64,000 nucleotides of DNA, taken from Lachnospiraceae bacterium (GTDB taxonomy: Bacteria; Bacillota; Clostridia; Lachnospirales; Lachnospiraceae). The notes beneath the pieces were generated by a model. It saw only the letters and a list, made by a program, of their open reading frames with translations. It did not search any database and was not told the DNA's origin. Location of the stretch: assembly GCA_015057025.1 (NCBI GenBank), contig SVFD01000001.1, positions 558,001 to 622,000 of the forward strand, given 5' to 3'. Both the position numbers and the translations under genes were made by a program. This document shows positions 1,588 through 23,329 of the stretch, piece by piece; within the stretch, counting starts at the first letter, position 1, and every line of letters begins with the position of its first letter.

Positions 1588-1669
1588 ATATAAATGTGTA
1601 CGTAAAGTGGGTATGTGTATGGAGAGATGGTGATTTAATCAATGTCTTTACCAGAAGGAGGAACAAAAA

Positions 1670-3316: not shown

Positions 3317-3332
3317 TATAAAGGGATAGGTC

Positions 3333-3584
3333 ATGAAAGATAAAGTGATATTACAATTTGAGAGAGAAAAAACTAAAGAAAAGATGGATATAGAGGTTCC
3401 TTTACAAATTACAGTAAATGAATTATTACATGCTCTTAATCAGGGACTAAATTTGGGCATTGATTTAACAGATATGTCGCAGTGCTATCTGGTTTCCGAG
3501 AATCCGATCGCGTTATTAAAGGGTGATACTTTGTTGGAAGAGTACGGAATTCACGATGGTACAAAGATTTGTTTTAACAGGTAG
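3333..3584 (+). CDS. esaB: YukD/EsaB-like ubiquitin-fold T7SS protein
   Basis: An 83-residue protein with the beta-grasp pattern of the YukD/EsaB family: two N-terminal strands, a helix around VNELLHALNQGLNL, and a C-terminal LLEEYGIHDGTKICF segment typical of ubiquitin-like proteins. EsaB/YukD is a cytosolic component or regulator of T7SSb systems. It sits between the FHA protein and essC with short gaps, so the three are probably co-transcribed. Family assignment is by pattern; it is firm mainly because of the adjacent essC. Confidence 0.82.
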   Translation: MKDKVILQFEREKTKEKMDIEVPLQITVNELLHALNQGLNLGIDLTDMSQCYLVSENPIALLKGDTLLEEYGIHDGTKICFNR

Positions 3585-3592
3585 GATAAAAG

Positions 3593-8101: not shown

Positions 8102-8173
8102 ATATTAAATGAATGTATGGAAAGGGCTTATATGTCATTACCATAAAGGATGTATGTAAAGGAGGAAAAAGAA

Positions 8174-8539
8174 ATGGATACATCATTAGCAATAAACGGA
8201 TTGCCCGAGTTAACATTAACAGGTACGGCAACAACCGGAACTGTAGGAGGAAATGCAACAACAGTAAGTGCTGCATGTGAAAATCTGGATACCTATGCAA
8301 CTAGCATGGATGCCTTTATCGAAGAATTAGAGGCGCAGAAGGATGAGATATTACTGGGATGGGAAGGCGAAGCAGCAGACGCATTACGTGAAAGTTTTCC
8401 CGGTTTAATCGAAGCATTTCGTGAGGTTCCCCCTTCTATTCGTTCCATTTCGAATTGGGCCACAACAACAATGAATGCTTATGTACGAAGAGATCAGAGT
8501 ACTGCTGAGAGTATTAGAGCAATTTTAGGAGGTAAGTAA
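8174..8539 (+). CDS. WXG100-family secreted protein
   Basis: The product of 121 residues carries the WEG signature in the turn between two long helices (LLGWEGEAADAL), as in EsxA/YukE proteins. I place the start at the ATG at 8174 because AAAGGAGG lies 10 bases upstream; an in-frame ATG at 8150 would overlap that ribosome binding site. A Thr/Gly-rich N-terminal stretch precedes the helical hairpin and is longer than in minimal WXG100 proteins. It is presumably exported by the EssC machine, alone or as a dimer with the next gene product. Confidence 0.9.
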   Translation: MDTSLAINGLPELTLTGTATTGTVGGNATTVSAACENLDTYATSMDAFIEELEAQKDEILLGWEGEAADALRESFPGLIEAFREVPPSIRSISNWATTTMNAYVRRDQSTAESIRAILGGK

Positions 8540-8540
8540 A

Positions 8541-8852
8541 ATGTCAGAGATCGGTGGAGCTAGATTAACACAGAATACAGCAAGTCAGGCTGAGAAAGCA
8601 GAAGCTTTAGAAGAGATTGTGGTAAGAGTCGTTAATAAAATCGAAGAGATTGATGAAGAAATTAAGACAATTGTTGCCGGAGGAATTGAAGGTGAAGCAA
8701 TAGAGACTATGGCAACTACATATTTAAGAAACAGAGAAGTAATCAGTGATTATGTTAAGAAATTTGCAGCACTGGCTATTGTTTTGTATGAAGATTCTCA
8801 GAATATGAAAACTGTAGAAAGCAATGCAAATGTTGCAGCCGGTGGAAATTAA
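8541..8852 (+). CDS. WXG100-like small helical protein (no Trp)
   Basis: A 103-residue, two-helix, acidic protein that follows the WXG100 gene after one base, so the two are surely co-translated. The turn reads AGGIEGEA, where the glycine pattern of WXG is kept but the Trp is missing. In Esx pairs one partner often lacks a perfect motif. It is the likely heterodimer partner of the upstream WXG protein, or a second substrate. A strong hairpin follows at 8862. Confidence 0.82.
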   Translation: MSEIGGARLTQNTASQAEKAEALEEIVVRVVNKIEEIDEEIKTIVAGGIEGEAIETMATTYLRNREVISDYVKKFAALAIVLYEDSQNMKTVESNANVAAGGN

Positions 8853-8861
8853 GTGATTTAA

Positions 8862-8888
8862 GGGAAGCCGCTAATAATGCGGCTTCCC
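8862..8888 (+). terminator. Strong hairpin after the WXG pair
   Basis: A perfect 10-bp GC-rich stem (GGGAAGCCGC / GCGGCTTCCC) with a 7-base loop lies 10 bases after the second WXG stop codon. No T-run follows, so full termination is uncertain. It may stabilise the upstream WXG mRNA or partly attenuate expression of the downstream substrate gene. Confidence 0.6.
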
Positions 8889-8913
8889 ACTAAATAATAT
8901 ACAGGGGGATAGT

Positions 8914-11580
8914 ATGGCTGATACAGAGAAGGTATATGATTTTGCAATTAACCAAGCTTCGCTGGTAGAGGCGTTGGAAGAATATAAAAATATGGAAGAC
9001 ATGCTCTTGGAACTGAAAGACAGAAGCACATGTATTCATGAGTTGACCGCAAATTATAGTGGAGAGGCATGCAGTACATTGGAATGCAATATAGATTATT
9101 TTTTTAATGAAGGTGATTATGCATATGCGTATGAAATGGTATGTAAGGTGCGTGAACTAATGGAAAGCATATTACCGGAGGTAAATGCACTTTTGGCACG
9201 TTGTGCGGGCTTGAGAGAACAATTAGGTTCAGATGAATATGTTGAGCCGGTAGTTCCTACAGCGGAAGATGTTACACCATGGAATGATGGTATTTTGACA
9301 TTGGATTATAATCAAATATCTATTATTAAAAGTCTATGTGAAGATATTGCTGAAGAAAACGGACGATTAACCCAGAAGCTAAAAACGATTATGTTGGGCT
9401 GTCAAGATATTATTGAAGGAACGGATAAGGATTTAGAAGATGTTACCGATGCAATGAACAGACTGAATAGGGTTTTGAATTATAAGGAATCATTTGAATT
9501 ATATGAAAAAGGTGTTCGTGCTTTGGATGAAGAGATTGCATTACAGGTAAGATGTACATTGGACGGTGCAGCGAGTGTAGGAGCGGAATGTGGAGCAGAT
9601 TATATATCGGATGATTACCTGTATATGAGTGAAGATGAAATAGACGCATTGTTTGAAGATTTAAAAGCAAATGGCGACGAAGAAGAAATGATGGCTATAG
9701 CAAACAAGATATTCGAACAGGAACCTGAGGAATGGAATGAGGGGAATGCAAAGTACGTTGCTTTGGTGATGGAATATTCTTATGAGAACGGGAATTCAGA
9801 GATGTTCCAGAAATGTTTGGAAGAAGTTTGTTGTGGTGATTGTACTGTATACGAAGATACAAATAAGATTGATATGATTATGAATGAGTTAGACCCTGAA
9901 ACGCAGGGAGAACTGTATTATACGTTGAATCGTATTAATCTTACGGAAGGTGAGATATATGAGATTGAGTTTAGACAGAATGGAGATGAAAATCAGGTAT
10001 ATTTCCGTACAGGAGTTCCGGTATCTTCATACTATATGTATGAAGCAGAATATACCTATACTATAAATGATATGCAAAAGTTGATATCTCCGGAAGAAGA
10101 AGCGAAATTGTTGGCAATGGGATTTACATCAGAGCAGGTGGAGCAGTTACGTTTATGTGCAATAACGGATGCGGATGTGTCTTTCTGGGACCATATGGGT
10201 GGCTTAAATTATGATGAAGCATTCGGAGTTGATCCGAGAGGATTCTCAACATTAGGTGAAGCCACGTTTACACAGTTTAGCAATTCTATTTTATATATGC
10301 CGGGAGGTGGCCCCGAAGAATTTCAGACTTATGTAAACTCTATGTTGGGAACCAATTCCGAGAGATGTTTTGCAAATGAAAACTGTTATTATCAAATATA
10401 TTTGGAAATACTGAATACACATAGCGAGACAACTGCTGAATGCATGGAAGCACAGTTGTGGCAAATGGATTTGGTAGGAGACAGTGCTAAAGAAAATGAA
10501 CTGTTATGTGATGCGGCTCGTACATATGCACAGCCTTCCATGGAAATGAAGGGCTTCTGGTCTTCATTAGATATTGCCCTTGCCGCAGATACTAAGGCGG
10601 GAGAAAATAACTCCAATTATTACGGATTCTTTCCGGAGCGAGATGATTGGACCTATGGTTATGGATATGAGAGTGGAGACTGTACATTCCGAATTTCTGA
10701 GATACAGTGGAACGGGTGGGGAACGGAATGTTCGCAGATGAAATTTGATATTGAATTAGTAGACCGCAATTCGGGAGATGAAGGTTCTCTGATTAGCAGT
10801 CAACAGATTACCGTAAGTGTCAATTGGGATCATGATAAAACAATCGTGCCCAATGCTCTGAATGATTACAGGGAATTGGATGAGCAACGGACGGAAGCAG
10901 AGTCTGAATTCATTTTTGATTCTACCGTAAAGGTTATCGGTTTCTTCTCTCCGGAAGCTGAGAGGGTTCTGAATAGCATTGAAACAGCCGGAAAAGAGGG
11001 AGATGAAGCGCTATTTTATGATATATTAACAGATGAAATACAGAATACAGGTAACCCCATTGCGGACCGCATCACAAAGGGTACTTTATTGTGTTGGGAT
11101 ATCTACAGTGATTACAGAGATATGAAGGATAGCTATGATACAGAGTATGAAGCCTTGGGTGATAAGTCAGTTATGGACTGCTGGGGCTCTAACGTATCTG
11201 TTCAGATAGGTGAGAGAAACTATATTGTATATGAAGGCGTCTTTGAACCGGAAACCGTACAGAACTTCCAAAGCTGGAAAGAGAACGGATTAAGTGGATT
11301 GCCGGGAAATGAGTGGATGACGAAAGATGATATAGATGGAATCGAAAATGAAATTGAGTATCTTAATGAGGATTCCACGAATTTTGCAGAAAGAGTATTT
11401 CCTTATGATGAAGAGAAGCAGAAGCTGGCGAAAGAATACTTAAATGTTCTTATTCGTGGCGATGCGGATGCAATCGACATACTGGAGATGGACAGGGAAG
11501 TATTGATGGTATGTCTTAACGAGCTTCAACGGGTGGAAAATAGCTTGTATCAGGATAACTCATTTATAAATATTTGGTAG
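8914..11580 (+). CDS. Large LXG-like T7SS substrate candidate
   Basis: An 888-residue acidic protein with no signal peptide. The first 210 or so residues align by eye with the N-terminus of the lysozyme-bearing protein at 14871. Shared features are an N-terminal QASL/QSSL helix start, a YSGEA turn at about 47-52 in the place of WQGEA, EAYE-type CVRKVR helices, LLxRC, and YKxSFxxYxxGxxALxxxxA. This suggests an LXG-like helical targeting domain. The remainder (about 230-888) is rich in Tyr, Asp and Glu; I recognise no enzymatic motif in it. It is probably exported by the T7SS, with two LRR proteins encoded directly behind it as possible partner or immunity functions. Start ATG follows a CAGGGGGATAG site. 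Confidence 0.7.
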   Translation: MADTEKVYDFAINQASLVEALEEYKNMEDMLLELKDRSTCIHELTANYSGEACSTLECNIDYFFNEGDYAYAYEMVCKVRELMESILPEVNALLARCAGLREQLGSDEYVEPVVPTAEDVTPWNDGILTLDYNQISIIKSLCEDIAEENGRLTQKLKTIMLGCQDIIEGTDKDLEDVTDAMNRLNRVLNYKESFELYEKGVRALDEEIALQVRCTLDGAASVGAECGADYISDDYLYMSEDEIDALFEDLKANGDEEEMMAIANKIFEQEPEEWNEGNAKYVALVMEYSYENGNSEMFQKCLEEVCCGDCTVYEDTNKIDMIMNELDPETQGELYYTLNRINLTEGEIYEIEFRQNGDENQVYFRTGVPVSSYYMYEAEYTYTINDMQKLISPEEEAKLLAMGFTSEQVEQLRLCAITDADVSFWDHMGGLNYDEAFGVDPRGFSTLGEATFTQFSNSILYMPGGGPEEFQTYVNSMLGTNSERCFANENCYYQIYLEILNTHSETTAECMEAQLWQMDLVGDSAKENELLCDAARTYAQPSMEMKGFWSSLDIALAADTKAGENNSNYYGFFPERDDWTYGYGYESGDCTFRISEIQWNGWGTECSQMKFDIELVDRNSGDEGSLISSQQITVSVNWDHDKTIVPNALNDYRELDEQRTEAESEFIFDSTVKVIGFFSPEAERVLNSIETAGKEGDEALFYDILTDEIQNTGNPIADRITKGTLLCWDIYSDYRDMKDSYDTEYEALGDKSVMDCWGSNVSVQIGERNYIVYEGVFEPETVQNFQSWKENGLSGLPGNEWMTKDDIDGIENEIEYLNEDSTNFAERVFPYDEEKQKLAKEYLNVLIRGDADAIDILEMDREVLMVCLNELQRVENSLYQDNSFINIW

Positions 11581-11595
11581 AAGGAGAGTAAGAAC

Positions 11596-12585
11596 GTGAA
11601 GAAAAAAAAGATATTCTTAGCAGTTGGTATTATTGTAATGGCGGTTCTGTCAGTAATCATTGGATTCGCCATTTACCATAAGATAAATGTTCCATATGAG
11701 TACTATGTCAATGAGGATGGAACCGTTACTCTTGATAAATATTTAGGCGAAGAAGCCAATGTAGTGATACCGGAGACAATATATGGAAGAGAGGTAAAGG
11801 TAATTGACGTAATCTGTTTCTATGACAATCAGACATTGGAAACGGTTACCATACCGGATACTGTGGAGATTATTGAATCGCGTGCATTTGGTAGTTGTTA
11901 TAGTTTAGAAACAGTGTATGGTGGTGCAAATGTAAGAGAGATCGAATCACATGCATTTTCGGGGTGTCGCATGTTGTCTGCATATCCTTGGTCCGATGAA
12001 TTGGAATCGATAGGAGATTACGCTTTTTTAGCTACAGGTTTAACAGAAATAATATTGCCATCAGAAGTGAGGACAATTGGGAATTTGGCTTTTGCAAATT
12101 GTTTTCAACTTGTAAAGATAGAAATACCGGAAGGTGTAGAAGAAATAGGAAGGGGTATTTTCGATGGTGTTGAAAATATCCCAGAGCTTATAGGGTATGC
12201 TTCTTCCGATTATTTGATTGTAGGGCAGGGAATTCTTATCAATTACCCGGATGATGAGGAAATCGTAGTCATACCGGAAGGTGTAAAGCAGGTGGCATCC
12301 TGTTGCCATGATGGAGAGCAATTAAAGGAATTATATATACCGGAGGGAGTTACTAGGATTAATAAGTTTGTGGTTCTGTCCGTTCATGGGGTTACCATAT
12401 ATATTCCGTCCACCGCAACAGAGATTGGAAAAGATGCGGATGGTTATATTGCAAACAGTATGGAGGAATCAACACTTGTAGTAGTGGAAGGTTCTTATGG
12501 AGAAGAATATGCCGAGAAGATGAATGACTTGTATGGGACAAAATATATAGTAGTGGATAAGATAGAGTATCCGGAAGCGGATTAG
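11596..12585 (+). CDS. Membrane-anchored BspA-type leucine-rich repeat protein
   Basis: GTG start behind GAAGGAGAG. An N-terminal transmembrane anchor (about 6-27) is followed by BspA/LRR_5 repeats built on the pattern IPDTVExIExxAFxxC, seen at least five times between residues 60 and 250. Such repeats form extracellular protein-binding solenoids. The gene begins 15 bp after the large LXG-like gene and is followed by a paralogue, so the two LRR proteins probably serve the secreted protein as partners, receptors or immunity factors. Which of these is true is not visible. Confidence 0.82.
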   Translation: MKKKKIFLAVGIIVMAVLSVIIGFAIYHKINVPYEYYVNEDGTVTLDKYLGEEANVVIPETIYGREVKVIDVICFYDNQTLETVTIPDTVEIIESRAFGSCYSLETVYGGANVREIESHAFSGCRMLSAYPWSDELESIGDYAFLATGLTEIILPSEVRTIGNLAFANCFQLVKIEIPEGVEEIGRGIFDGVENIPELIGYASSDYLIVGQGILINYPDDEEIVVIPEGVKQVASCCHDGEQLKELYIPEGVTRINKFVVLSVHGVTIYIPSTATEIGKDADGYIANSMEESTLVVVEGSYGEEYAEKMNDLYGTKYIVVDKIEYPEAD

Positions 12586-12608
12586 GAAGTTTTTAGAGAG
12601 AGGTTTTT

Positions 12609-13562
12609 ATGAATAAGAAGTGGAAAACAGTACTTATCATTGTTTCGGTAATGACCATGCTTTTCATCGGCTGGATAATAGTGTTGCCTTATATAAAACC
12701 GGTTGAGGTCAAAGGGATTATTTTGCCATATAAATATGAAGTATACGGAGATTATGTAAAAATTCTAAAGTATACGGGAGATAGTGAGCGAGCAAGGATA
12801 CCTGAAAGAATTTGGGGACGAAAAGTAACTGTTATAGATATAGGGGCATTTTCGGAAAATAATAAAATTGAAAAAGTTGTGATTGGAGATAATGTAGAGA
12901 TAATACATGTAGCTGCATTTAAAGGTTGTATCAATTTAAGAGAAGTAGAGTTCCCAGAGGAATTGACTGCAATATATGGTAGTGCGTTCAAGAGTTGCAG
13001 TGCTTTGGAAAGTGTGGAACTGCCGGCGCAACTGGAAGTGATAGGTAGTAGTGTGTTTAGAGATTGTACGTCCCTTAGCAGTATTCAAATTCCGGAAAGT
13101 GTACAGTATATCGGATATAAAGCATTTTTTGATTGTTCTAATTTGCAATATATAGAAATTCCGAAGAGCATACCAAGAATTGAAGGCGAAGCTTTTGGAA
13201 GAACCAAATGGATGGAGCAACAGACGGAGGACTTTGTAATTGCAGGAGATGGAGTGCTAATTGCATATCAGGGAGATGATAAGATTGTATATATACCGGA
13301 CGGAGTTAAGGCGTTTGGGGCTGTATTTGATGAAAAAATAGATTATATTGATAGAATAGTAATACCAGAAAGTGTTCAAATCGTATATTGGGATAGGATT
13401 GGTCTTGATATAGAAGAAGAGTTTATAGAAGTTTTAATAGAGAATGATGAGATTCTTTTAGAAGAAAAATGTTTTGAAGGGATGATTATTATAGCTCGAG
13501 AGAACTCTGCGGGACATCAATATGCAAAGGATCACGGAGAAGAGTGGATAAGATTGGATTAA
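12609..13562 (+). CDS. Second membrane-anchored BspA-type LRR protein
   Basis: A 317-residue paralogue of the preceding protein: Lys-rich N-terminus, transmembrane anchor (about 6-28), then BspA-type repeats such as IPESVQYIGYKAFFDC and ELPAQLEVIGSSVFRDC. Both proteins share a mid-segment of the form DFVIAGDGVLIAYQGD / YLIVGQGILINYPDD before the last repeats, which shows common descent by duplication. An AGAGAGG site precedes the ATG. It ends the first transcription block of the array; an 86-bp AT-rich gap follows. Confidence 0.82.
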   Translation: MNKKWKTVLIIVSVMTMLFIGWIIVLPYIKPVEVKGIILPYKYEVYGDYVKILKYTGDSERARIPERIWGRKVTVIDIGAFSENNKIEKVVIGDNVEIIHVAAFKGCINLREVEFPEELTAIYGSAFKSCSALESVELPAQLEVIGSSVFRDCTSLSSIQIPESVQYIGYKAFFDCSNLQYIEIPKSIPRIEGEAFGRTKWMEQQTEDFVIAGDGVLIAYQGDDKIVYIPDGVKAFGAVFDEKIDYIDRIVIPESVQIVYWDRIGLDIEEEFIEVLIENDEILLEEKCFEGMIIIARENSAGHQYAKDHGEEWIRLD

Positions 13563-13648
13563 TTTTTTCTTATCAAAATTATAACAAATAATATTAAAAA
13601 AGATATGCAGAAAGGTATTTAGATGTTTTTAGAAGGAGGGATTTATAT

Positions 13649-13963
13649 ATGGAAATTATACCTGCAAATATATCAGTAGATTCTGAAAGTGTATATCGAA
13701 CCTCATCTGATATTGAAGAAGCAAAGGATGATATAGTGGTCGCATATACAGATTTGGATACTGCGAATGAAACTTTTATAGAGGGGTTAGAAGGTGATGT
13801 TAAAACCAATTTCGACCGTATTATTACTGTTACTGATAATGCAATTACTACAATGAATCAAACATTAACGAACTTAATTAATGAGATGGATTCATATTCG
13901 GCCATGATGAATGGAGTAGATACTTTGGCTAGTGTGCAGATTGGAGGAAGTACAGATGAGTAG
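13649..13963 (+). CDS. Small helical LXG-partner-like protein (LapA/YwqI type)
   Basis: A 104-residue all-helical acidic protein without signal peptide, with a central turn FIEGLEGDV. In LXG toxin loci, two small helical proteins of the WXG100 superfamily (DUF3130/DUF5344 and DUF3958/DUF5082 types) precede the toxin and help its export. Size, position and pairing with the next gene fit that pattern. AGAAGGAGG precedes the start. The assignment is by architecture, not by a diagnostic motif. Confidence 0.68.
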   Translation: MEIIPANISVDSESVYRTSSDIEEAKDDIVVAYTDLDTANETFIEGLEGDVKTNFDRIITVTDNAITTMNQTLTNLINEMDSYSAMMNGVDTLASVQIGGSTDE

Positions 13964-14306
13964 TTGTAGATGTGATGAAATTGAGAAATATACGACATAT
14001 AAGGAAACACTTGAATTATATCTGGCAGAATTTAATGCTTGTGATGATATGCTTGTAAATATTTCTGATGATCTTACAACATTAAAAGAGAAAGTTGGTG
14101 CGGCATACTATGCAAATAATATGAGTTCAACAGTAAACTGGATAGGTAATCTTGATGCGAGTATGATCAAAATCAAAGGTACATATCAGGAGAAATTTAA
14201 TACACGCTTGGAAGGAATTAAATCAATATTATCACAATTAAGTGCAGAAGATGCTGAGTTTCATGAAGAAGAGGAAGCTCAGGCATTGACGATGGGAGAT
14301 TGTTGA
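13956..14306 (+). CDS. Small helical LXG-partner-like protein (LapB/YwqH type)
   Basis: I choose the ATG at 13956 (MSSCRCDEIE), which has GGAGG at 13943 and overlaps the previous stop by 8 bases; the same start geometry and the same MSSCRC N-terminus recur in the paralogue at 14516. The product has 116 residues with two long helices and an acidic FHEEEEAQA tail. The overlap indicates translational coupling with the upstream partner. No LXG protein follows this pair directly; a second module begins instead, so its cognate toxin may have been lost or may be elsewhere. Confidence 0.72.
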   Translation: MSSCRCDEIEKYTTYKETLELYLAEFNACDDMLVNISDDLTTLKEKVGAAYYANNMSSTVNWIGNLDASMIKIKGTYQEKFNTRLEGIKSILSQLSAEDAEFHEEEEAQALTMGDC

Positions 14307-14357
14307 TTTAATAGAGGGAGATTAACAAAACTTTGTACAGAATAGAGAGGAGGAAAA

Positions 14358-14523
14358 ATGCAAATTGTTCTTGAGAAATTTAGTATTAGGGATACTGTAA
14401 TTGGGACAAAGAGTAGAATCTGTTCTTGTCAAATTGGCGGAAGAATTAGAGATGTTTGCTACAAAGATACAAACAATAGACGCAGAGGCTGCTTATATGG
14501 CGGGAGGATATGCTAATGAGTAG
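14358..14523 (+). pseudogene. Frameshifted remnant of a LapA/YwqI-like gene
   Basis: A good ribosome binding site (GAGAGGAGG) leads into ATG at 14358, but that frame stops early at about 14516. The plus-one frame from about 14401 encodes a C-terminus LAEELEMFATKIQTIDAEAA...YANE that stops at TAG 14521-14523. That end overlaps the next gene start exactly as the intact gene at 13649 overlaps 13956. I read this as a shortened, frameshifted duplicate of the 13649 gene. Confidence 0.6.
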
Positions 14524-14878
14524 TTGTAGATGTGAGGATATCAAAAGATGTAAAGAAAAGATTGAAAAGATAATATACATTGAAAGTTCATTAAATGCAA
14601 TGGATGCTCAAGTGACTAATTTAAATAATATAACGAGTAGTTTATTTGGAAAAGTAGGATTTGCATATGAAGGTATAAATGTAGAAGAATTCAAAGGTAT
14701 TATTACCGATTTGGATAATGATATCTATGGTGTTAAGAGAGATTTTCAGGCGGTACTTTCAAATAAAAAACAACTAATAAAAAATGAACTGCAATGTTTA
14801 GAGAATGAAGACCGAGATTTTCATGAAGAGGAAAAGATGGCTGCACTTGCCAGAGAGGAGGGAATCATTAGTGAATAA
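14516..14878 (+). CDS. Second LapB/YwqH-like helical partner protein
   Basis: A 120-residue paralogue of the 13956 product: it shares the MSSCRC N-terminus, a central KVGFAYEG turn matching KVGAAYYA, and the tail EDRDFHEEE. I choose ATG 14516, which has GGGAGG 9 bases upstream; an in-frame ATG two codons earlier is less well spaced. It overlaps the LXG-lysozyme start by 8 bases, so partner and substrate should be made together. Expected role: binding the LXG domain and escorting it to EssC. Confidence 0.74.
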   Translation: MSSCRCEDIKRCKEKIEKIIYIESSLNAMDAQVTNLNNITSSLFGKVGFAYEGINVEEFKGIITDLDNDIYGVKRDFQAVLSNKKQLIKNELQCLENEDRDFHEEEKMAALAREEGIISE

Positions 14879-16415
14879 TATGAATGAATTTAGAATTGAG
14901 CAATCCTCCTTGATACAAGCTTTGGAACACTATAGAGAAATGGAGACAGTACTGGAAGAAGAACGGGAAAATTTACAGAATATTATATCTCAGGAGTCTT
15001 CAAAATGGCAGGGAGAGGCGGCGGAAGTGGCTGTCAGCAGTATGAATTCCTTTCTTCAAACAGGAGAATATAATGAAGCATATGAATGTGTACGCAAGGT
15101 GCGTCTGTGTATGGAGGATACATTGGATCAGGTCAGTGCCTTGCTGGTTAGATGCGAAGATTTTCCCAAACAATTGGAAAGTGATACATATATAGAATCC
15201 ATGCGTCCGGCTTGTGGAGACTATACATTAAGAAACGGCGGTGTTCTGTATCTGGATTATGGGAAAGCAATGGTTATTCCTGACTTGTGCGATCAAATAT
15301 CAGAAGCGGCAGAATATTTAGGAACGGTTTTGAAACAAAGTATGGAAGACTGCAGAGGCATTATTGACGATATAGATGGGTATCAGAATCGTGTTGATGA
15401 AGCGGTTAGAAAAGTAAAAAGAGTAGAAAACTATAAATTATCCTTTCAGAAGTATGTGCAGGGAATCAAGGCACTGGAGAATGATGTTGCGGTGTGTCTG
15501 GCAGGGATGAAGGATGAGCCTGGAGTTGATGTTAGTACTATGGAAGAATCGGATAGTATTGAAAGAGATATTACAAGAATTTCAGAAGCTAAGAAATATG
15601 ATGTTGCAGAGGAAATACTAAGAAGATATTTAACAAAGCTAGGAATGGATCCTGTTGAGCAAAATATGTTAATAGAAATACTAAGAGAAAAGAATCCTAA
15701 TATGCTATCAACTTTATATGCTGTTAGTAGATATAGCAGTGCAGATATGGATGATGTATTAGAAGAAATAATAAATTATTATAATTCTAATTTAGAATGC
15801 AAAATGTTGAGTTCAGACGGGATATATAAATTAAGAGATATCGAACTTGCAGAATATCAAATATCCGACTTATGTGTATTAGATGATGAAGGAGAAATAA
15901 TTGGGATTTGGCCATACTATGTGATGATAAACGCTGGAAATGGAACACATTACAATGATGGTGGTATAACGATAGGATACGGGCATCATATAAATGCTGA
16001 AGAATGGAAATTAGTGGATGGTGAGGAGCACGTACTGCTTTCGCAATATGTGCCTGAAGATGTAATCATATCTGGCATTGTTGTAAATAATAGTGAGTTG
16101 ACTTTATCAGGCAATGTTTTAGTAGATGGCGCTAATTATGTGCCTATTGATGAAGCAAATCAAATATTGGCAGAAGATATTATCTATCATAGTAATGAGG
16201 TTGCTGATTTCTTGGAGGAAAATGGAATTGAAGTGACGCAGGGACAATTTGATGCACTTGTAATATACCGATTTAACAGAGGTCATTTATCGCAGACTGC
16301 AATAGATTATTTGCGTGAAGGAAATATGAGCGAAGAGGATTGGCGTGCTGTGTGGACTGGAGGCGAAGAACGGGAAAAATTGTGTCAGGAGTTATTTTTT
16401 GGAACGGAGGGATAA
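14871..16415 (+). CDS. LXG-like T7SS effector with GH24-type lysozyme domain
   Basis: The start is GTG 14871 (GAGGAGGG 8 bases upstream); ATG 14880 is an alternative. The first 210 residues form the LXG-like helical domain, with a WXG-type turn SKWQGEAA near residue 50. A helical linker follows. From about residue 320 the sequence resembles T4/GH24 muramidases: ITIGYGHH (Gly369-His372), a QFDALVIYRFNRG helix, and a TAIDYLREG...WRAVW ending. GH24 enzymes cut the MurNAc-GlcNAc bond. The catalytic Glu is probably in DDEGE, 25-30 residues before GYGH, but this spacing is longer than in T4 lysozyme, so activity is uncertain. It has no signal peptide, as expected for T7SS export. A lipoprotein gene follows after one base. 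Confidence 0.78.
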   Translation: MNNMNEFRIEQSSLIQALEHYREMETVLEEERENLQNIISQESSKWQGEAAEVAVSSMNSFLQTGEYNEAYECVRKVRLCMEDTLDQVSALLVRCEDFPKQLESDTYIESMRPACGDYTLRNGGVLYLDYGKAMVIPDLCDQISEAAEYLGTVLKQSMEDCRGIIDDIDGYQNRVDEAVRKVKRVENYKLSFQKYVQGIKALENDVAVCLAGMKDEPGVDVSTMEESDSIERDITRISEAKKYDVAEEILRRYLTKLGMDPVEQNMLIEILREKNPNMLSTLYAVSRYSSADMDDVLEEIINYYNSNLECKMLSSDGIYKLRDIELAEYQISDLCVLDDEGEIIGIWPYYVMINAGNGTHYNDGGITIGYGHHINAEEWKLVDGEEHVLLSQYVPEDVIISGIVVNNSELTLSGNVLVDGANYVPIDEANQILAEDIIYHSNEVADFLEENGIEVTQGQFDALVIYRFNRGHLSQTAIDYLREGNMSEEDWRAVWTGGEEREKLCQELFFGTEG

Positions 16416-16416
16416 G

Positions 16417-17100
16417 ATGAGAGTAAAAAAAGTAATAAATATTATGATTTTGTGCGGATTATTAGGAGCGCTTATTGCAGGTTGCAATCAATCAAATATG
16501 TCAGAGGATGAAAAGATTATGCAAACAGGCACATCAGCATCAGAAACAGAGGAAATATCTGAAACAATAGTAGGAGAAGAAGTTGAAAATCAAACAACAG
16601 AAATAGAGGAGAATGTATATCATCAAAATGATGCATATAAGATATTCTATGGTACGTGGGAGATTACAAGCGTGGTATGTGAGCATAGTAGGCTTGGTGG
16701 AGACGCCGGATATGCGGATATAGTAGGGTGGCAAATAACCTATTTGCCAACTTTATTTGAATGTAACGGTGCGAGTATTGAGAATCCGAATTATCTAATT
16801 ACAATTTTTCCAGCAGGTAGTCCTAAATCTTTTATAGATGATTTTATCGTTATGGACTCATTATTACCGGATAGTGATTTTTATGTATGGGTTGAAATTG
16901 TAGATAAACCGTCTTGGAGTGAGTTGGGTATTGATTATGATGAGTATGAGTCAGAAATGTATACAGGATGTGAATTTTTTGTCAAAGATGATGCTACGCT
17001 GTATTGTGTTGCAAATAATTGTGTGTACGAACTGACACGGGTTAGTTATATGGACGGATATGATGTAATAGATGCAACAACCTATCATGAAAGATGGTAA
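16417..17100 (+). CDS. Lipoprotein, candidate immunity protein to the lysozyme effector
   Basis: The ATG at 16417 is one base after the effector stop and has ACGGAGGG upstream. The signal peptide ends in the lipobox LIAGC with Cys23. A Glu/Thr-rich linker leads into a domain of about 155 residues opening with FYGTWEITSV, a pattern of small beta-barrel proteins. A surface-tethered protein made together with a muramidase would be well placed to shield the producer's own wall. The immunity role is inferred from coupling and location; I do not recognise the domain. Confidence 0.75.
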   Translation: MRVKKVINIMILCGLLGALIAGCNQSNMSEDEKIMQTGTSASETEEISETIVGEEVENQTTEIEENVYHQNDAYKIFYGTWEITSVVCEHSRLGGDAGYADIVGWQITYLPTLFECNGASIENPNYLITIFPAGSPKSFIDDFIVMDSLLPDSDFYVWVEIVDKPSWSELGIDYDEYESEMYTGCEFFVKDDATLYCVANNCVYELTRVSYMDGYDVIDATTYHERW

Positions 17101-17135
17101 ATTAATATCGGTATGATTAAAATAAACGATTCATA

Positions 17136-17228
17136 GCAAAACTTAACATACGCTTAAAAGAAATTAAATCAATAATAACGTAATTAGGTAAAGAAGAGGA
17201 AGTAACAAATAGCGGAATTGAAGATTAG
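17136..17228 (+). pseudogene. Decayed C-terminal fragment of a LapB/YwqH-like gene
   Basis: Read from 17136, the frame gives AKLNIRLKEIKSII, a stop, then LGKEEEV. This matches the C-terminal part of the 13956 product (EKFNTRLEGIKSILSQLSAE). The nucleotides agree closely over roughly 60 bases. It is the leftover of a third partner module, lying directly outside the left inverted repeat. Confidence 0.65.
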
Positions 17229-17245
17229 ATTAAATAAGTTGAAGA

Positions 17246-17270
17246 GTACGGATAATAGAGGATTATCTTT
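17246..17270 (+). repeat. Left copy of 25-bp perfect inverted repeat
   Basis: The 25 bases from GTACGG to ATCTTT are the exact reverse complement of 21658-21682. Inside lies a short dyad, GATAAT-AGAGG-ATTATC, typical of the two half-sites bound by a tyrosine recombinase. The copy ends 22 bases before the ATG of the ATP-grasp/radical-SAM gene. Confidence 0.92.
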
Positions 17271-17292
17271 AAAGAAAGGTAAGAAGAAGGAA

Positions 17293-20124
17293 ATGCTTTT
17301 TTTTATAAAAAATAAAACTTTAATAACGATAATATCGACAATTTTTCCCCCTGGATTGATTATTTGGTTAATAATTGCAAGCTTTTTTGAAATAGATAAT
17401 AAAATATCGATAACGGATATAGTTGCCTTAGTATTATCTGTATTGACAATTATTATAACGTTTAAAATTTATCTTGAGCAAAGAAACGACAACGATAACA
17501 TACGTTTTACAGGATCCTATAATAAAATTTATAAAGAAATCTTTTCGATGCGAAAAGACGTAACGAATATATTAAAAATTTCAAAACAATATGAATTTTA
17601 CTATGAACTTGACACAATTAAGTCTCATATTGAAATTGAAGAAAAAGTGCTAGACCATTTAACAAGAATAGAAAATTTCTTCACTTTAGTAGGGAATAAT
17701 AAAAAAGTAACGAAGACATTTGAAAAATTAACATCATATGCCTTTTATCAGCGTATTATTGCATTTTATCCCTACATACTATACGTCAGAAAAAATAATG
17801 AGAATATGTTTACTCAGATCGTAGAGGTAATAAATTTAATGGAAAAAATGCAGAAAATCAAAAGCAGAATACAATTAGAAAAAAACAAATGTTATATAGG
17901 AATACGTGAATCAGACATATTATACACTTCAAATTATTTCAAGAAAAGTGTATGCATTTTTTCACAAAATGTAAGAAAAGATGATTTTTCCGTAAGACCT
18001 AATCAAAATATTCCTAATAAAGAAACTATTCTCTATTATAATAAAGGATTAGATACAATAAAGAGTAAAGGCAATAAATATGTATTCTATAATCAAAATG
18101 AAGCATACAATTTTCCACCACATATTTTAGCCCAAACTATATGTCTTAATAAATTAGAACTTCTTTCTTTTTTAAATAATAAATTATCAGTTAAAGAATG
18201 GCTTGCTCAAAATAATGTACCTATTATACCTTATGAAACATTTTTAGGAAAAGATATCCTATTATCAAAATTATCAGACAGTTTTTCAAAAGCGGAAGAA
18301 TTCGTTGTACAATCATACCATGGTGGCGGAGGTATCGGAACCTTTCTTTTTAATCATTCAACCAGTTATAATGTGAGAAGACAAATAAATATGCTACAAC
18401 AATATATAGTTTCTCCCTATATACCAAGCATTTCTGCCAATACGCATATTTTTATATCAGATAAGCAGATCATATTGTCACCTGCGTCAATACAAATTAT
18501 CGAACTACACAATAATCAATTATGTTATAGAGGGTGTGACTATATTGCCTTTAGAACGCTACCAAATTCTATTAAAGAAAAAATTAAGGATGAAAGTCTT
18601 AGTGTTGCACAGTTGTTGTTAGAAAAAGGCTATCGTGGTATTGCCGGTATAGATTTTATTATTGATAAAGAGGATAATGTATATGTTTCAGAAATTAATC
18701 CCAGATTTCAAGCATCTACAATCTTACTGGATAAATATTTGTCAAAAAACAAAAAAACTCCCGAGGCAAAAAGTACACTTGAGATAAATGAAATGGCTTT
18801 CTTAGGAGGAATGATTTCTACCCTATGTTTTACAGATGAAATAAATTTGAGTTGCTATTATTATTATAAAGACGAGTTTGATGTAAAAGAGTATAAAAAC
18901 AAATTTGAAATCTTTGAAAGGAATAATTGTGAAATATTAGCAGACGGAGTTATAGAAGATATGAATTTGAATAAAATAGGTGATAATTCATATTTATATC
19001 GTGTTGTTTTTCCTCATGCAATATGTGCTATATCTCCTGATAAGGACCTTTGGATTCATAATAATATTCAAATTGGTCCCAAACCTAAAGATACTATATC
19101 ATTAAAGATTGCATTATTAAATCAAGGTGTACGTTTGGATAGTACTTTCCAAAATGTAAAAAACGGAGTTTACAATTCTATTGATATAAAATTACTTGAG
19201 AACTCTATATATGATTCAATAAATATAAATTGCGCATATAATATTCATCATTCAAATTATAGTCCTTTTTATATAAAAAATCAGAATGGAATAGCAAAAC
19301 TTTTCTATAATTATGATAACTTATGCGACGTATTGATTGAAACAAATTCCTTGGAACAATTTACTGAAACTGAGCGTGAAATCTTATATCTGGCAACAGA
19401 TCGTTTACGAATTAATATAATATCAGGGTGTGAGAATAAAAATATTGGTCAAGGATGCAAATTTTGCAATGTATCAATATCAAATAAAACATTTACATAT
19501 AAACAAATTATTGACGCTTTAGAACATTTAAAAACAACCCAAAAGACATTTGAACATATTATGCTTGGCGGCGGAAGTCGTTTAGATGCTGGCGGTTGGA
19601 AATTAATCATACAAATATGTAATTATTTGAAAAATGATGAATATTATAGAAATAAACCGCTTTCTCTGATGTCAATGTTACCTTCAGAGGCAATCCTCAA
19701 TAAACTAAAAGAAGCCGGTATTGAAGAAGTTGCTTTTAACATTGAAGTTGCAAATGAAAGACTCGCGAAATGTTTAATGCCCGCAAAACATAAAGAAGGC
19801 AAGGAGGCATATTATAATATATTAAATAAATCAGTAAATATTTTCGGAGAGGGCAATGTTCGCTCAGCATTAATTGTAGGATTAGACCAAAAAGAGGAAT
19901 TATATAATGAAATATTAACGTTAGCTGATATGAATGTTATACCTTGTTTATCCGCATTGCGAATTCTTCCCGGTTCTTCAATGGAAAATGCACTTCCGCC
20001 AAGTAATGAATATCTCATAGATGTATATAATCATAGTTGTGCTCTATTAAAAGAACTTGGCGGAAGCATAAAAGATCTTGGTCCGAAGTGTAACAGTTGT
20101 CGAAATAACATGTTACATTTATAA
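17293..20124 (+). CDS. Membrane-anchored ATP-grasp / radical-SAM fusion protein
   Basis: I choose ATG 17293 (GAAGAAGG upstream) over an in-frame TTG at 17218, whose reading would run through the inverted repeat; this gives 943 residues. Two N-terminal transmembrane helices (about 10-60) lead into a helical domain. An ATP-grasp ligase domain follows (about 240-490: SYHGGGGIGTF, GIAGIDF, SEINPRFQAST). After a connecting region comes a radical-SAM domain (about 700-900) with Cys713-x8-Cys722-x2-Cys725 as likely 4Fe-4S ligands and LGGGSR as a SAM-binding block. The cluster spacing differs from the classical CX3CX2C. A second pair, Cys933/Cys936, is at the C-terminus. ATP-grasp enzymes join a carboxylate to an amine; radical-SAM enzymes rearrange or functionalise unreactive carbons. 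The combined substrate is unknown. The gene is visibly more AT-rich than its neighbours. Confidence 0.8.
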   Translation: MLFFIKNKTLITIISTIFPPGLIIWLIIASFFEIDNKISITDIVALVLSVLTIIITFKIYLEQRNDNDNIRFTGSYNKIYKEIFSMRKDVTNILKISKQYEFYYELDTIKSHIEIEEKVLDHLTRIENFFTLVGNNKKVTKTFEKLTSYAFYQRIIAFYPYILYVRKNNENMFTQIVEVINLMEKMQKIKSRIQLEKNKCYIGIRESDILYTSNYFKKSVCIFSQNVRKDDFSVRPNQNIPNKETILYYNKGLDTIKSKGNKYVFYNQNEAYNFPPHILAQTICLNKLELLSFLNNKLSVKEWLAQNNVPIIPYETFLGKDILLSKLSDSFSKAEEFVVQSYHGGGGIGTFLFNHSTSYNVRRQINMLQQYIVSPYIPSISANTHIFISDKQIILSPASIQIIELHNNQLCYRGCDYIAFRTLPNSIKEKIKDESLSVAQLLLEKGYRGIAGIDFIIDKEDNVYVSEINPRFQASTILLDKYLSKNKKTPEAKSTLEINEMAFLGGMISTLCFTDEINLSCYYYYKDEFDVKEYKNKFEIFERNNCEILADGVIEDMNLNKIGDNSYLYRVVFPHAICAISPDKDLWIHNNIQIGPKPKDTISLKIALLNQGVRLDSTFQNVKNGVYNSIDIKLLENSIYDSININCAYNIHHSNYSPFYIKNQNGIAKLFYNYDNLCDVLIETNSLEQFTETEREILYLATDRLRINIISGCENKNIGQGCKFCNVSISNKTFTYKQIIDALEHLKTTQKTFEHIMLGGGSRLDAGGWKLIIQICNYLKNDEYYRNKPLSLMSMLPSEAILNKLKEAGIEEVAFNIEVANERLAKCLMPAKHKEGKEAYYNILNKSVNIFGEGNVRSALIVGLDQKEELYNEILTLADMNVIPCLSALRILPGSSMENALPPSNEYLIDVYNHSCALLKELGGSIKDLGPKCNSCRNNMLHL

Positions 20125-20129
20125 AAATC

Positions 20130-21614
20130 TTATTTAATATTTTTCTTTCTAAAAATTATAATATCTTTATCATAAAATGAATCAATATCAGTTTTTAATT
20201 GTTGAGTAATGTCTTCAATATATTGATTCATTTTTTTGTTTGAATATTTATCTTTAGTATTCATTAATTGTTCTTTACATAAGTTAATTCGTGCATCAGT
20301 ATACATTTTAAACATATCTTGCGCTGCTTCTTCATATTGTTGAATGTAGGTAGATTCTTTTTTCTTTTTATCAATTGAATCTATAATTTTCCAAATAAAA
20401 TCACTTATAGTTGCTACGCTTGCTATACCGCAGAATACATCAATAACAATTTCAAAAGGAGAATGGTTTGATAACGCAACGCGAAAACCTGTTTGTCCTA
20501 ATTCAACTCGCGAAAGTTTTTCATTTAGCACATTGCATAGTTCGTTAACATATTTAACACCATCCCTATTTTTCTTACAAATATTTGTTCTTACTTTTAT
20601 TTTAAGATTAATTGAATTACTGTTTCCGGATAACAACATTTCTCTTATCTCACCATAATACAACAAGCTATTGTTAATATTATCAATAGGCAAGTCTTTG
20701 CCGGTAATATAAAGGTCCATTTCCTTTAATATTTTTTGTGTTATGACTTCGTCCAATAATTCAAATCTCTGTGCTAATCGACAGAAGTAACGAATCAATC
20801 GAAAATCTTTTTTCGCAATTGATTTGTTAATGCCCATTAGAAGTGTCTCTTTGGCGGCAGATATTTCACCTTGTATAATTTGTAAATTACATATAGGAAA
20901 ATATTCTTCTTGTCCGTAATAATACGGAATAAGGGTATTTATCTGTCGAAGGTATTCTGCTTTGGTAATGGTTTTCTTCTGGGTTTTAAAATATATAGCG
21001 TCATCGTTATCAAAGCAGTTTGCTATTCCAATAACATATGCAGCTTGATAAAAGGGAAAAGAGACATTCTCAAATGAACTTTTAAATAATTCGATAAATT
21101 CTACATTTACATGTCCTAAATCAACATTTTTTAAGGTTGTATTATTTATCTTAATCCCCTCTAATGTACAGCTACTAAATACACAATTATTAATTGTACT
21201 TTTTAAAAAGAGCGCATTAAGAAAACTACTATTTTTGAAAATTATATTTTCAATATTGCATTTTATAAAATTACTTTGACTATAATTATTTCCGCTAAAA
21301 TATGTATTTTCTTCACAGCATATATTGGAATTGTTAAAAGTGCAATTTACAAAACCATTGCCGTTTACTTGACAATTCAAAAAATCGATATTATTAAAAC
21401 ATGATCCTACAAAAGCATTTTCATATAATTTATTATTTTCAAAAATATAGTTTATAAAAGTACTTCTTTTTAAACTTTCATTCAGATAGTTTGCCGTATT
21501 TATTTCCCTCTTTTGATAATTACCGATAAACTTATTGTTATTTACTTTTTCGTCAGGATAATTTTCCCATAATTTACTTGTTGCCTGTTTTATTGCTTCT
21601 TCTGTATAATACAT
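20130..21614 (-). CDS. Pentapeptide-repeat protein with C-terminal membrane-associated domain
   Basis: The start is ATG 21614, with GGAGG 5 bases upstream; an in-frame ATG at 21626 overlaps that site and lacks its own. The protein has about 494 residues. From about 25 to 190 it carries degenerate pentapeptide repeats (units such as FINYIFENNKLYENAF and SNFIKCNIENIIF), which fold as a right-handed beta-helix. A middle helical region follows, then a segment IVIDVFCGIASVATISDF (about 405) hydrophobic enough to contact a membrane, and a charged coiled tail. It converges on the ATP-grasp/radical-SAM gene with 5 bases between stops. The gene is AT-rich like its neighbour. Function unknown. Confidence 0.75.
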   Translation of the reverse strand: MYYTEEAIKQATSKLWENYPDEKVNNNKFIGNYQKREINTANYLNESLKRSTFINYIFENNKLYENAFVGSCFNNIDFLNCQVNGNGFVNCTFNNSNICCEENTYFSGNNYSQSNFIKCNIENIIFKNSSFLNALFLKSTINNCVFSSCTLEGIKINNTTLKNVDLGHVNVEFIELFKSSFENVSFPFYQAAYVIGIANCFDNDDAIYFKTQKKTITKAEYLRQINTLIPYYYGQEEYFPICNLQIIQGEISAAKETLLMGINKSIAKKDFRLIRYFCRLAQRFELLDEVITQKILKEMDLYITGKDLPIDNINNSLLYYGEIREMLLSGNSNSINLKIKVRTNICKKNRDGVKYVNELCNVLNEKLSRVELGQTGFRVALSNHSPFEIVIDVFCGIASVATISDFIWKIIDSIDKKKKESTYIQQYEEAAQDMFKMYTDARINLCKEQLMNTKDKYSNKKMNQYIEDITQQLKTDIDSFYDKDIIIFRKKNIK

Positions 21615-21657
21615 ATTTTCCTCCATTTATTATTTATAAGTCTCTTACAATTTAGTG

Positions 21658-21682
21658 AAAGATAATCCTCTATTATCCGTAC
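21658..21682 (-). repeat. Right copy of 25-bp perfect inverted repeat
   Basis: Reverse complement of 17246-17270 without a mismatch, reading from AAAGAT to CCGTAC on the plus strand. It lies 44 bases upstream of the pentapeptide-repeat start codon and directly beside the terminator at 21684. Confidence 0.92.
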
Positions 21683-21683
21683 A

Positions 21684-21709
21684 AAAAGGCACCTTTCCAG
21701 GTGCCTTTT
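21684..21709 (-). terminator. Terminator of the recombinase gene, abutting the inverted repeat
   Basis: A perfect 11-bp stem (AAAAGGCACCT / AGGTGCCTTTT) with loop TTCC. It stands about 80 bases past the recombinase stop, and its arm ends in T residues in both directions. It should stop leftward readthrough into the cassette and rightward transcripts leaving it. Confidence 0.85.
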
Positions 21710-21790
21710 CCTCTCAACCAACATATTCTTTTTATCCCGTATGCCTACTTCCACATCCCCTTTCCTTCATTTACATATTAATCATCCCCC

Positions 21791-22711
21791 TCACACCCTA
21801 AAATCCTTCCTCGGATGCTTCGTCGTCAAAATATCCCTCTGTTTTGCCATTGCCACATGGGTATAAATCTCCGTAATATGGATAGAACTGTGTCCCAGCA
21901 TTTCCTGGATGTAGCGGATATCCACGTCCGCCTCTAAGAGGCTGGTGGCAAAAGTGTGCCGGAACATGTGGGGCGTGATGTGTAAGTCGATGGAGGCAAG
22001 GGCAGAGTACTTGCGTATCATGCGGCGGACGGTCTGGTCGGAGAGTGGGCGCATGGATTGGTTTACGAAGAAGTGTCCGCAGGCGTCAATTTCTTCGCTG
22101 AAGGCATTACAGTATTCGAGAAGAATCTGATAAACGGCATCGTTTCCAATCTGGATATGACGTTCCTTGGACCCTTTTCCGAAGATTAGGATGTTGCGGC
22201 TTGTAAGATTCACGTCTTCTCTTTTGAGGGAGCAAAGCTCGGAAATACGCATGCCGGTGGCAAAGAGCAGTTCAACAACAGCAACATCCCGCAGGCAGTT
22301 TTTCTTTCGGAAAGTGGTGGTGGCATGGGCATATTCTTTATACATGATAACAAGAAGCTGTTCCATGGTCTGCAAAGGGATAGTTTTGGGGAGGATAATC
22401 GGCTCGCGGAACTTAATATGTATTTTATTAAAAGGATTGATTTCAATATAATTCCGGTACTCCAAATAGTGGAAAAAAGCCTTCAGGGAAGCAATTTTTC
22501 GCTTTGCGGTTTTGGGCTTATAAGTAAGATGCAGTGTCTTAATATATTCTTCTAAAAGGGTAGGAGTGATACTGAGAATATTTTCTGCACGGACAGTATC
22601 AGAGAATTGACGCAAGTCAATGCGGTATGCCTTTAGGGTTTTGGGGTCTAAGCGTTTCTGGTATTGACAGAACTCCAAATATTCGATGGTTATCTTTTGC
22701 AAATGATTCAT
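21791..22711 (-). CDS. Tyrosine recombinase (XerC/D, RecV-like)
   Basis: The ATG at 22711 has AAAGGAG 9-10 bases upstream and gives 306 residues, the usual size. The N-terminal SAM-like DNA-binding domain (about 1-90) is followed by the catalytic domain with the full set: Arg155 (ATGMRISEL), Lys182 (GKGSKER), His248 and Arg251 (HMFRH), His274 (LGHSS) and the nucleophile Tyr283 (IYTHV). The enzyme should cut and rejoin DNA at paired sites. Its position next to a perfect inverted repeat suggests it inverts the 17246-21682 segment, as RecV-type enzymes do in Clostridioides. A longer open frame upstream (to 23335) is antisense to the gene at 22850 and is not used. Confidence 0.9.
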   Translation of the reverse strand: MNHLQKITIEYLEFCQYQKRLDPKTLKAYRIDLRQFSDTVRAENILSITPTLLEEYIKTLHLTYKPKTAKRKIASLKAFFHYLEYRNYIEINPFNKIHIKFREPIILPKTIPLQTMEQLLVIMYKEYAHATTTFRKKNCLRDVAVVELLFATGMRISELCSLKREDVNLTSRNILIFGKGSKERHIQIGNDAVYQILLEYCNAFSEEIDACGHFFVNQSMRPLSDQTVRRMIRKYSALASIDLHITPHMFRHTFATSLLEADVDIRYIQEMLGHSSIHITEIYTHVAMAKQRDILTTKHPRKDFRV

Positions 22712-22739
22712 ATGGGTGCGCTCCTTTGTGTTTTTGCCT

Positions 22740-22767
22740 ATTGTAACAGATTTTACAAAGAAGCCAA
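22740..22767 (-). promoter_or_regulatory. Putative sigma-A promoter of the recombinase gene
   Basis: On the minus strand TTGGCT, 16 bases, TACAAT, about 30 bases before the start codon. A plausible vegetative promoter by pattern only. Confidence 0.5.
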
Positions 22768-22790
22768 TAACAAATGCATGCCTTGGAATA

Positions 22791-22818
22791 TTGCCATTTG
22801 GGATAAAAGGTATATAAT
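22791..22818 (+). promoter_or_regulatory. Putative sigma-A promoter for the 22850 gene
   Basis: TTGCCA, 16 bases, TATAAT, followed by GAAAGGA and the start codon at 22850. The spacing and the exact -10 box make this a good candidate. Confidence 0.65.
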
Positions 22819-22849
22819 AAAAGCAAATCACTGAAAGGAATACCCACTG

Positions 22850-23329
22850 ATGAAAAAGAAACTCACGCTTGGATTCAGAATATTCTACATAACCTTGTTT
22901 GCGGCAATTCTGTTTGCGGCGATTTGGTTTCTGTTGCCAAGAATACATGGTGAAGTCACAGCTACCATTAATGGTACAAGTTACGTGCCGGATAGCATAA
23001 GCTGCAAATATGAGGTTGCAGAAGATGAATTGAAGGTAGTTTCTTTTAAAACAGACGAAGGACTTAAGTTTTTTAATCATGGATTTGCAAAAGATTGTTT
23101 TGAGTATACTTTTTACATCAGTGATGAGGAACTCGATACAGAGGTAACGATTTTTTATATTAAAGGAAGAAACCGGTCTTTTAGAAACTTGGATATAGAA
23201 GTGGATATTTATGAAGAGGGAGATGCGTGGTGTGCTGATGTGACGGTGGATAAGGCCGGGCAACTGTATCAGGAGTCCTTTTATGATATCGAGAAGAGTG
23301 GTATTGAGATGAGGGTAAGTGATATATAG
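22850..23329 (+). CDS. Small membrane-anchored protein of unknown function
   Basis: A 159-residue protein with one N-terminal transmembrane segment (about 8-30, ending LLPRIHGEV) and an extracytoplasmic beta-rich domain with two Cys residues near the middle (ISCKYEV and AKDCFEY) and one near the end. It has its own promoter and a terminator at 23356. A long antisense frame runs through it but has no ribosome binding site here. I do not recognise the family. Confidence 0.72.
   Translation: MKKKLTLGFRIFYITLFAAILFAAIWFLLPRIHGEVTATINGTSYVPDSISCKYEVAEDELKVVSFKTDEGLKFFNHGFAKDCFEYTFYISDEELDTEVTIFYIKGRNRSFRNLDIEVDIYEEGDAWCADVTVDKAGQLYQESFYDIEKSGIEMRVSDI

Follow-up and report, generated by a model that had tools for sequence, protein, structure and literature searches.

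The segment between positions 17246 and 21682 of a 64,000-nucleotide stretch of a Lachnospiraceae genome (GenBank assembly GCA_015057025.1, contig SVFD01000001.1, positions 558,001 to 622,000; the whole stretch is referred to as the window) is very probably a site-specific DNA-inversion cassette, the flipping of which would exchange the strongly expressed gene. The closest described systems include the G segment of phage Mu and the C segment of phage P1, in which serine invertases (Gin and Cin) select between homologous tail-fibre genes. Inversion of the two segments alters host adsorption (PMC12529663). As in these phages, an invertible segment in the window would set alternative genes beside a fixed outside sequence; in contrast to them, the recombinase is a tyrosine enzyme, the genes are unrelated, the loci are chromosomal, and the cargo depends on the locus. 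The system works like the Mu G segment but falls outside the Mu family of invertible segments.

The cwpV and flagellar switches of Clostridioides difficile, assigned to RecV-type enzymes, are likewise DNA-inversion phase switches in Clostridia, but they involve short regulatory segments, whereas whole genes on segments of 1.9-6.7 kb are concerned here. The invertible sites of these switches are named in PMC5903667. In hsdS inversion systems, such as PsrA of Streptococcus pneumoniae, a tyrosine recombinase also acts by inversion, on a restriction-modification locus; parts of specificity genes are recombined there, whereas here whole genes are exchanged. Xer recombinases acting on dif and integrons are similar in that the recombinase of the window is nearest to XerC/XerD and its site is a dif-like dyad; however, it belongs to a separate branch and is associated with inverted pairs and inversion, rather than with dimer resolution or direct-repeat cassette arrays. 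An integron reading, raised by contigs on which several sites follow one another, was rejected: complete loci hold inverted pairs, not direct ones. Inverton group 139 (32/33 from Clostridia) is linked in PMC11892184 to a tyrosine-recombinase group, which could include related enzymes; the text consulted describes no two-gene cassettes. No description of such a system was found in the literature searched, preprints and most subscription papers lying outside the search, and the preliminary description of this DNA likewise knew of none.

The locus comprises the following features (window coordinates):
17246-17270, plus strand: left recombination site, core GATAA-N7-TTATC at 17251-17267, centre TAGAGGA
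17293-20124, plus strand: cargo gene 1, encoding an ATP-grasp and radical-SAM protein whose N-terminal part includes a hydrophobic stretch; recombinase-distal in the sequenced state
20130-21614, minus strand: cargo gene 2, pentapeptide-repeat protein (Pfam Pentapeptide_4, 6.9e-11), now on the recombinase-proximal side
21658-21682, minus strand: right recombination site, core at 21661-21677
21683-21709, minus strand: terminator-like hairpin followed by a T tract (-19.7 kcal/mol, z -5.4), in the gap that separates the recombinase gene from the right site
21791-22711, minus strand: Xer-like tyrosine recombinase of 306 amino acids, start codon ATG at 22711, stop codon ending at 21791
3593-17100, plus strand: type VII secretion system (T7SS)-type operon (EssC-like, WXG100, other small and leucine-rich-repeat proteins), from which transcription is presumed to read through into the distal gene

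In the proposed mechanism, the Xer-like recombinase would cut the two inverted dif-like sites (GATAA/TTATC arms around an identical 7-bp centre) and flip the 4.4-kb segment. The recombinase-distal gene would be transcribed from outside, by a near-site promoter in many relatives and probably by read-through from the T7SS operon here, and the recombinase-side gene would be shielded by a terminator. The sequenced state would give the ATP-grasp/radical-SAM enzyme and the flipped state the pentapeptide protein.

Re-examination of the sequence confirmed the perfect 25-bp inverted repeat (GTACGGATAATAGAGGATTATCTTT; plus strand on the left, minus strand on the right), the interval of which is filled by the two convergent genes. 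The repeat lengthens to 32 nt at 91% identity, and no third copy occurs in the 2.65-Mb genome at up to three mismatches, leaving exactly two. Both copies contain the dyad core, in line with the short dyad likened earlier to recombinase half-sites. Among the distances first reported, the 22 bases between the left repeat and the gene start (probably ATG 17293) stand; the right gene starts 43 and not 44 bases inside its repeat (probably at ATG 21614, 21626 also being possible), and the complete tyrosine recombinase lies 108 rather than 109 bases outside the right copy. An alternative TTG start of the left gene at 17218, taken from a mechanical list of open reading frames (ORFs), falls before the repeat. 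The terminator noted to the right of the cassette corresponds to the hairpin with its T tract; it is likely to shield the cassette from transcription of the recombinase, and is not among the terminators from a consensus scan.

Related recombinases are accompanied by the same type of site. The exact core occurs within 400 bp of the recombinase stop in 36 of the 80 named relatives. A matrix built from 36 named loci, using the site next to the recombinase and leaving the distal partners outside the training, was used to scan 118 distinct recombinase loci, the window included. The best 80 of 214 relatives were kept, and regions were taken for 40 of the 58 places listed in the family search (mainly contig-end ones being omitted); L156, L158, L159, L160, and L162, which duplicate named loci, were removed before the count. 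Inverted pairs of matching cores, accepted at up to two core mismatches, are present at 36 of the 118, L103 and L161 (one cassette in two states) being counted twice, and are spaced 1.9-6.7 kb apart. The 7-bp centre is identical within each pair (36/36), with 25 different centres in total; 31 pairs have exact cores and 5 a single mismatch, never in the centre. Such identity within pairs is the pattern expected of a strand-exchange region. A reversed matrix and five block shuffles gave no inverted pair, and five letter-permuted matrices gave 0, 0, 0, 0, and 1. As the same site recurs family-wide in inverted pairs, a chance repeat is excluded. Only pairs were taken as evidence, since the degenerate site often matches singly (114/299 family genomes against 26 with the reversed-pattern control; 11/31 genomes of the genus against 0).

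Among the other loci, one has just a direct pair. A site at the recombinase is followed by a contig end within 700 bp in 25 loci and lacks a partner in 8 more; 11 loci show nothing but distant single sites, and no site at all was seen in 23 loci with 7 kb or more of downstream sequence and in 14 with shorter DNA. Besides the direct pair at L134, another (two mismatches) occurs between the two cassettes of L141, and there are no others. L141, from Roseburia faecis M72, holds these two cassettes within 14 kb (67-5116 and 10974-13319); their site centres differ, one carries carbamoyltransferase-cluster and ~1100-aa NTPase-cluster proteins and the other a ThsA-like and a TIR protein, and only the recombinase-adjacent pair was used in per-cassette statistics. 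In L107, L108, and L190, second inverted pairs with different centres are nested just inside the outer pair and may be older or alternative sites.

Inversion at such sites is documented in a relative. The flanks of L103 and L161 align on the same strand (98.9% over 3,977 bp and 97.0% over 2,413 bp), whereas the interior between the sites aligns in reverse (4,682 bp at 95.4%); at the junctions the two loci can be followed together across the site, beyond which each runs into a different gene. Thus the opposite gene order, which the preliminary description had proposed to seek in related genomes, was found for this pair and not for the window's own cassette. The sites and their pairing, the convergent layout, the link to the recombinase, the variety of cargo, and inversion in a relative are shown; flipping of the window copy itself, the cutting of its sites by the adjacent recombinase, and the effect on expression are inferred. 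A homologous SIR2/TIR cassette has opposite orientations to the recombinases in L084 and L184 (73.7% over 2,216 bp). Of 80 named contigs, 24 break off less than 250 bp past the recombinase stop codon and 4 at such a distance ahead of its start (p 1.8e-4), as expected if reads hold both orientations. L225, a 3,509-bp contig, shows the same outer flank (~40 bp and the site) at both cassette ends, a duplication that a longer inverted repeat could also explain. Both states occur across genomes: the recombinase side is occupied by the ATP-grasp/radical-SAM protein in 3/4, by SIR2 in 2/4, and by the short ATP-grasp protein in 4/9. With the recurrence of the recombinase family and the site type and the opposite orientations of L103 and L161, the invertible cassette put forward earlier is strongly supported. 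A glycosyltransferase-like and large NTPase-like cassette of genome G252 (L224 and L226) lies on a contig whose start falls inside the site and coincides with the terminal part of another contig, which bears one flank.

Of the 36 cassettes, 35 hold genes (ORFs of 100 aa or more) that run inward from the two sites and converge; 23 have exactly two such ORFs. No more than 150 bp separate the site from the start of the first ORF at 32/36 left and 34/36 right ends. The recombinase is oriented toward the cassette in 34/36 (away from it in L090 and L153), and in 29/36 loci the gap between its gene and the nearer site is 8-127 bp. The flanks were searched with our own promoter matrix, whose threshold (score at least 9) was set after a by-eye view of the flanks at 19 loci and the window, and with mononucleotide shuffles, so that the significance of any enrichment is optimistic; L140, having a distal flank of only a few bases, was left out of the distal counts (35). 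Inward sigma-70-like promoters at this threshold occur in 16/35 distal flanks, 3/36 near flanks, and 9/180 shuffles, and outward ones in 5/36 distal flanks. Terminators directed toward the cassette show the opposite distribution (10/36 near flanks, 1/35 distal flanks). L103 and L161 share one promoter-like sequence on the distal flank, and the gene in front of it differs between them. The earlier proposal that the alternative genes are read from the far side is supported by this placement as a tendency; in the window itself no clear promoter was found beside the cassette, and read-through from the T7SS operon is assumed. Expression of the distal gene with low expression of the proximal one is the likely rule, as far as flank composition indicates.

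The recombinase might instead serve a mobile exchange unit that swaps two-gene cargo via inverted sites, both genes being always expressed (the far one by the distal promoter, the near one with the recombinase) and inversion being a by-product. This explanation is possible but rather unlikely. Different cargo does occur between similar flanks (90-94% alike in L079 and L086; 80% over a flanking stretch in L084 and L088), no terminator was detected in 26/36 near flanks, and Thoeris-like partners on opposite arms would need co-expression. L168 and L172, which have a lone site beside the recombinase and no partner in ~13 kb downstream, are perhaps empty loci and also fit this view. However, near flanks are barely promoter-enriched (3/36 vs 7/180 in shuffles), and a neutral orientation would demand neither the convergence nor the ORF starts close to the sites described above. 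The inversion switch remains the preferred reading.

The recombinase of the window matches Pfam Phage_integrase at 1.7e-42, and its translation shows R, K, HxxR, H, and Y, which we take to be the tyrosine-recombinase motif. It is closest to XerC/XerD by profile and to the XerD structure 1a0p, with profile scores well under the equivalog cut-offs (235.2 bits for XerC, cut-off 335.15; 234.1 for XerD, cut-off 329.6); the integron-integrase model gives 96.7 bits, below its cut-off of 265 for an IntI-type enzyme. In a tree of 125 rows, a 100/100 branch separates the recombinase family from eight housekeeping-type Xer proteins, and cassette-bearing and cassette-free loci are interspersed. Among the 31 genomes searched in the genus, most carry only a 31-34%-identical Xer protein, and closer relatives (58-63%) occur in two others, G009 and G014 (partial in the latter). 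Matches at E<=1e-45 are found in 54/397 family genomes, and matches at E<=1e-70 in 24/295 genomes of the order, 16 of the 24 in five other families.

The diversity of the system lies in its cargo. The set comprises 95 proteins from 39 cassettes (the 36, L196, L197, and the second cassette of L141), the L103/L161 proteins being counted twice; Pfam was run on 43 of the 93 relative proteins and the rest were placed by similarity clusters. The largest clusters are pentapeptide (10 members), short ATP-grasp (9), TIR (8, of which L108_1 joined only via a fusion-like member), glycosyltransferase (7), ~1100-aa NTPase (6), ATP-grasp/radical-SAM (6), and SIR2 (4), followed by smaller groups. A Mrr-type nuclease domain is present in the two NTPases scanned (L099 and L103). 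On one side of many cassettes Pfam finds AAA/STAND-like, TPR, SIR2, TIR, and Mrr domains, and on the other ATP-grasp, radical-SAM, glycosyltransferase, carbamoyltransferase, SHMT-like, polyprenyl synthase, and methyltransferase domains; glycosyltransferases and ATP-grasp enzymes often face NTPases. Because no match was obtained for 13 in a set of 40 Pfam-scanned relative proteins, the effector-versus-enzyme arrangement appears as a tendency, not a law.

In the window, the Pfam matches agree with the cargo identities given earlier. Cargo gene 1 matches ATP-grasp_3 (2.8e-13) and Radical_SAM (1.9e-8), and NCBIfam variant_rSAM at 1.1e-31, under the cut-off of that model. Its product is 30-34% identical to five cassette homologs, over which it has ~200 extra N-terminal residues with the hydrophobic stretch, and is probably membrane-anchored. 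A DUF4760-like fused N-terminus, guessed from L197, was unsupported (E 0.23). The pentapeptide protein is 15-24% identical to the nine other cassette proteins in its cluster; the repeats are Pfam-confirmed in the window, L165, and L196. PADLOC gave no match for the window's own cargo or for the large NTPase of L103.

In known Thoeris systems, ThsA and ThsB are encoded in an operon and both partners are required. PADLOC assigns the four SIR2 proteins (L076, L084, L141, and L184) to ThsA at E 1.1e-59 or lower, corresponding to SIR2-STALD proteins, and three of the four TIR partners match ThsB, although all three score higher against PDC-S66, a candidate family; the TIR protein of L076 matches other TIR models only. 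In contrast to Thoeris, the genes are convergent on an invertible segment. Given the need for both partners, strict alternation would abolish function in these pairs; expression may be high or low rather than on or off, and leakiness, flipping at a high rate, or a role in dosage has to be considered.

Inversion could instead set dosage or timing in bipartite systems, in which the distal gene is expressed highly and the proximal one weakly and together with the recombinase, so that a flip alters the ratio of cooperating proteins. Partners are indeed conserved, as the ATP-grasp/radical-SAM cluster faces the pentapeptide cluster in 6/6 cassettes and SIR2 faces TIR in 4/4, and the short distance between recombinase and nearer site would allow read-through. 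On the other hand, the pentapeptide cluster also lies opposite another radical-SAM protein (L079) and unrelated proteins (L090, L104, and L140), and glycosyltransferases face several effector types. This reading, too, is possible but rather unlikely. That the repeats are chance or the ends of an unrelated mobile element (the latter named beforehand as refuting the switch) is highly improbable: variable cargo and the direct pair of L134 around a recombinase would suit it, but the same site and recombinase family in many genera, the inverted interior of L103/L161, and the near-zero controls contradict it.

Several observations weigh against the inversion switch, or at least against its strict form. 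In the window, neither reads nor strains show the cassette in both states, and no close copy was found: a 22-base part of the site (GTACGGATAATAGAGGATTATC) has no exact match in the genome-contig collection, where near relatives are possibly absent, and the nearest ATP-grasp/radical-SAM homologs across 299 family genomes are only 31-34% identical. No clear promoter stands beside the cassette, the distal side included (promoter-like matches over 16000-23000 number 44, against 39.7 with a standard deviation of 5.1 in shuffles, hence no excess), and 19/35 distal flanks of the family are under the promoter threshold. L140 is the exception to convergence. ThsA-like and TIR proteins on opposite arms in four cassettes fit strict alternation poorly. 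At L134 the only pair is direct (6266-11114) and encloses the recombinase and other genes, a unit that could be excised. Given the 23 siteless loci with 7 kb or more of sequence downstream, the recombinase may act on other targets or in trans. For the radical-SAM/pentapeptide cassettes L196 and L197 (G178 and G090), the only recombinase match of the genome (E<=1e-45) is ~144 kb away or on another contig; as sites are present and the recombinase is elsewhere, this suggests action in trans.

The rightward T7SS-type operon reported to the left of the cassette is present and includes an FtsK/SpoIIIE and FHA protein resembling EssC, as well as WXG100. By all appearance it is incidental upstream context rather than a meaningful link, beyond its assumed part as a read-through source; no terminator was found within 150 bp before the left site. 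No T7SS gene was evident by eye at the 19 cassette loci listed with their neighbors, and a T7SS-related role of the cargo was rejected because other neighbors flank the same gene pair in relatives. A 59-bp stretch left of the left site (17139-17197) is 78% identical to 14193-14251, the 3' part of a small ORF of the operon (13932-14306), and is apparently a decayed gene copy. The flanking gene is present in 4/31 genomes of the genus, its own included.

The preliminary description was right about the cassette and near the mark on its mechanism. Of wider importance is the family, in which a single recombinase and a single type of site go with many convergent gene pairs that can be exchanged. By comparison of the loci, the platform appears widespread in Lachnospiraceae, with exchangeable cargo that commonly sets a conflict- or defense-type effector opposite a biosynthetic enzyme. 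A broader proposal, the chances of which seem evenly balanced, is that of a modular flip-cassette platform in this family and perhaps in others of the order that have the recombinase, in which one recombinase family and site type carry exchangeable cargo on two arms (as a rule a biosynthetic enzyme facing an effector of immunity or conflict, and including Thoeris-like halves), and inversion sets which half is made and splits clones into two phage-response states. The four cassettes with ThsA-like and TIR proteins on opposite arms make this regulation directly testable, and the cargo of the window nominates a radical-SAM/ATP-grasp enzyme and a pentapeptide protein, both uncharacterized, as a functional pair. 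If expression follows orientation, many Lachnospiraceae would possess a standard plug-in switch between entire genes that are unrelated to each other, several being of immune type; phage defense would then be heterogeneous within clones, and the recombinases found beside defense genes would have a reason to be there.

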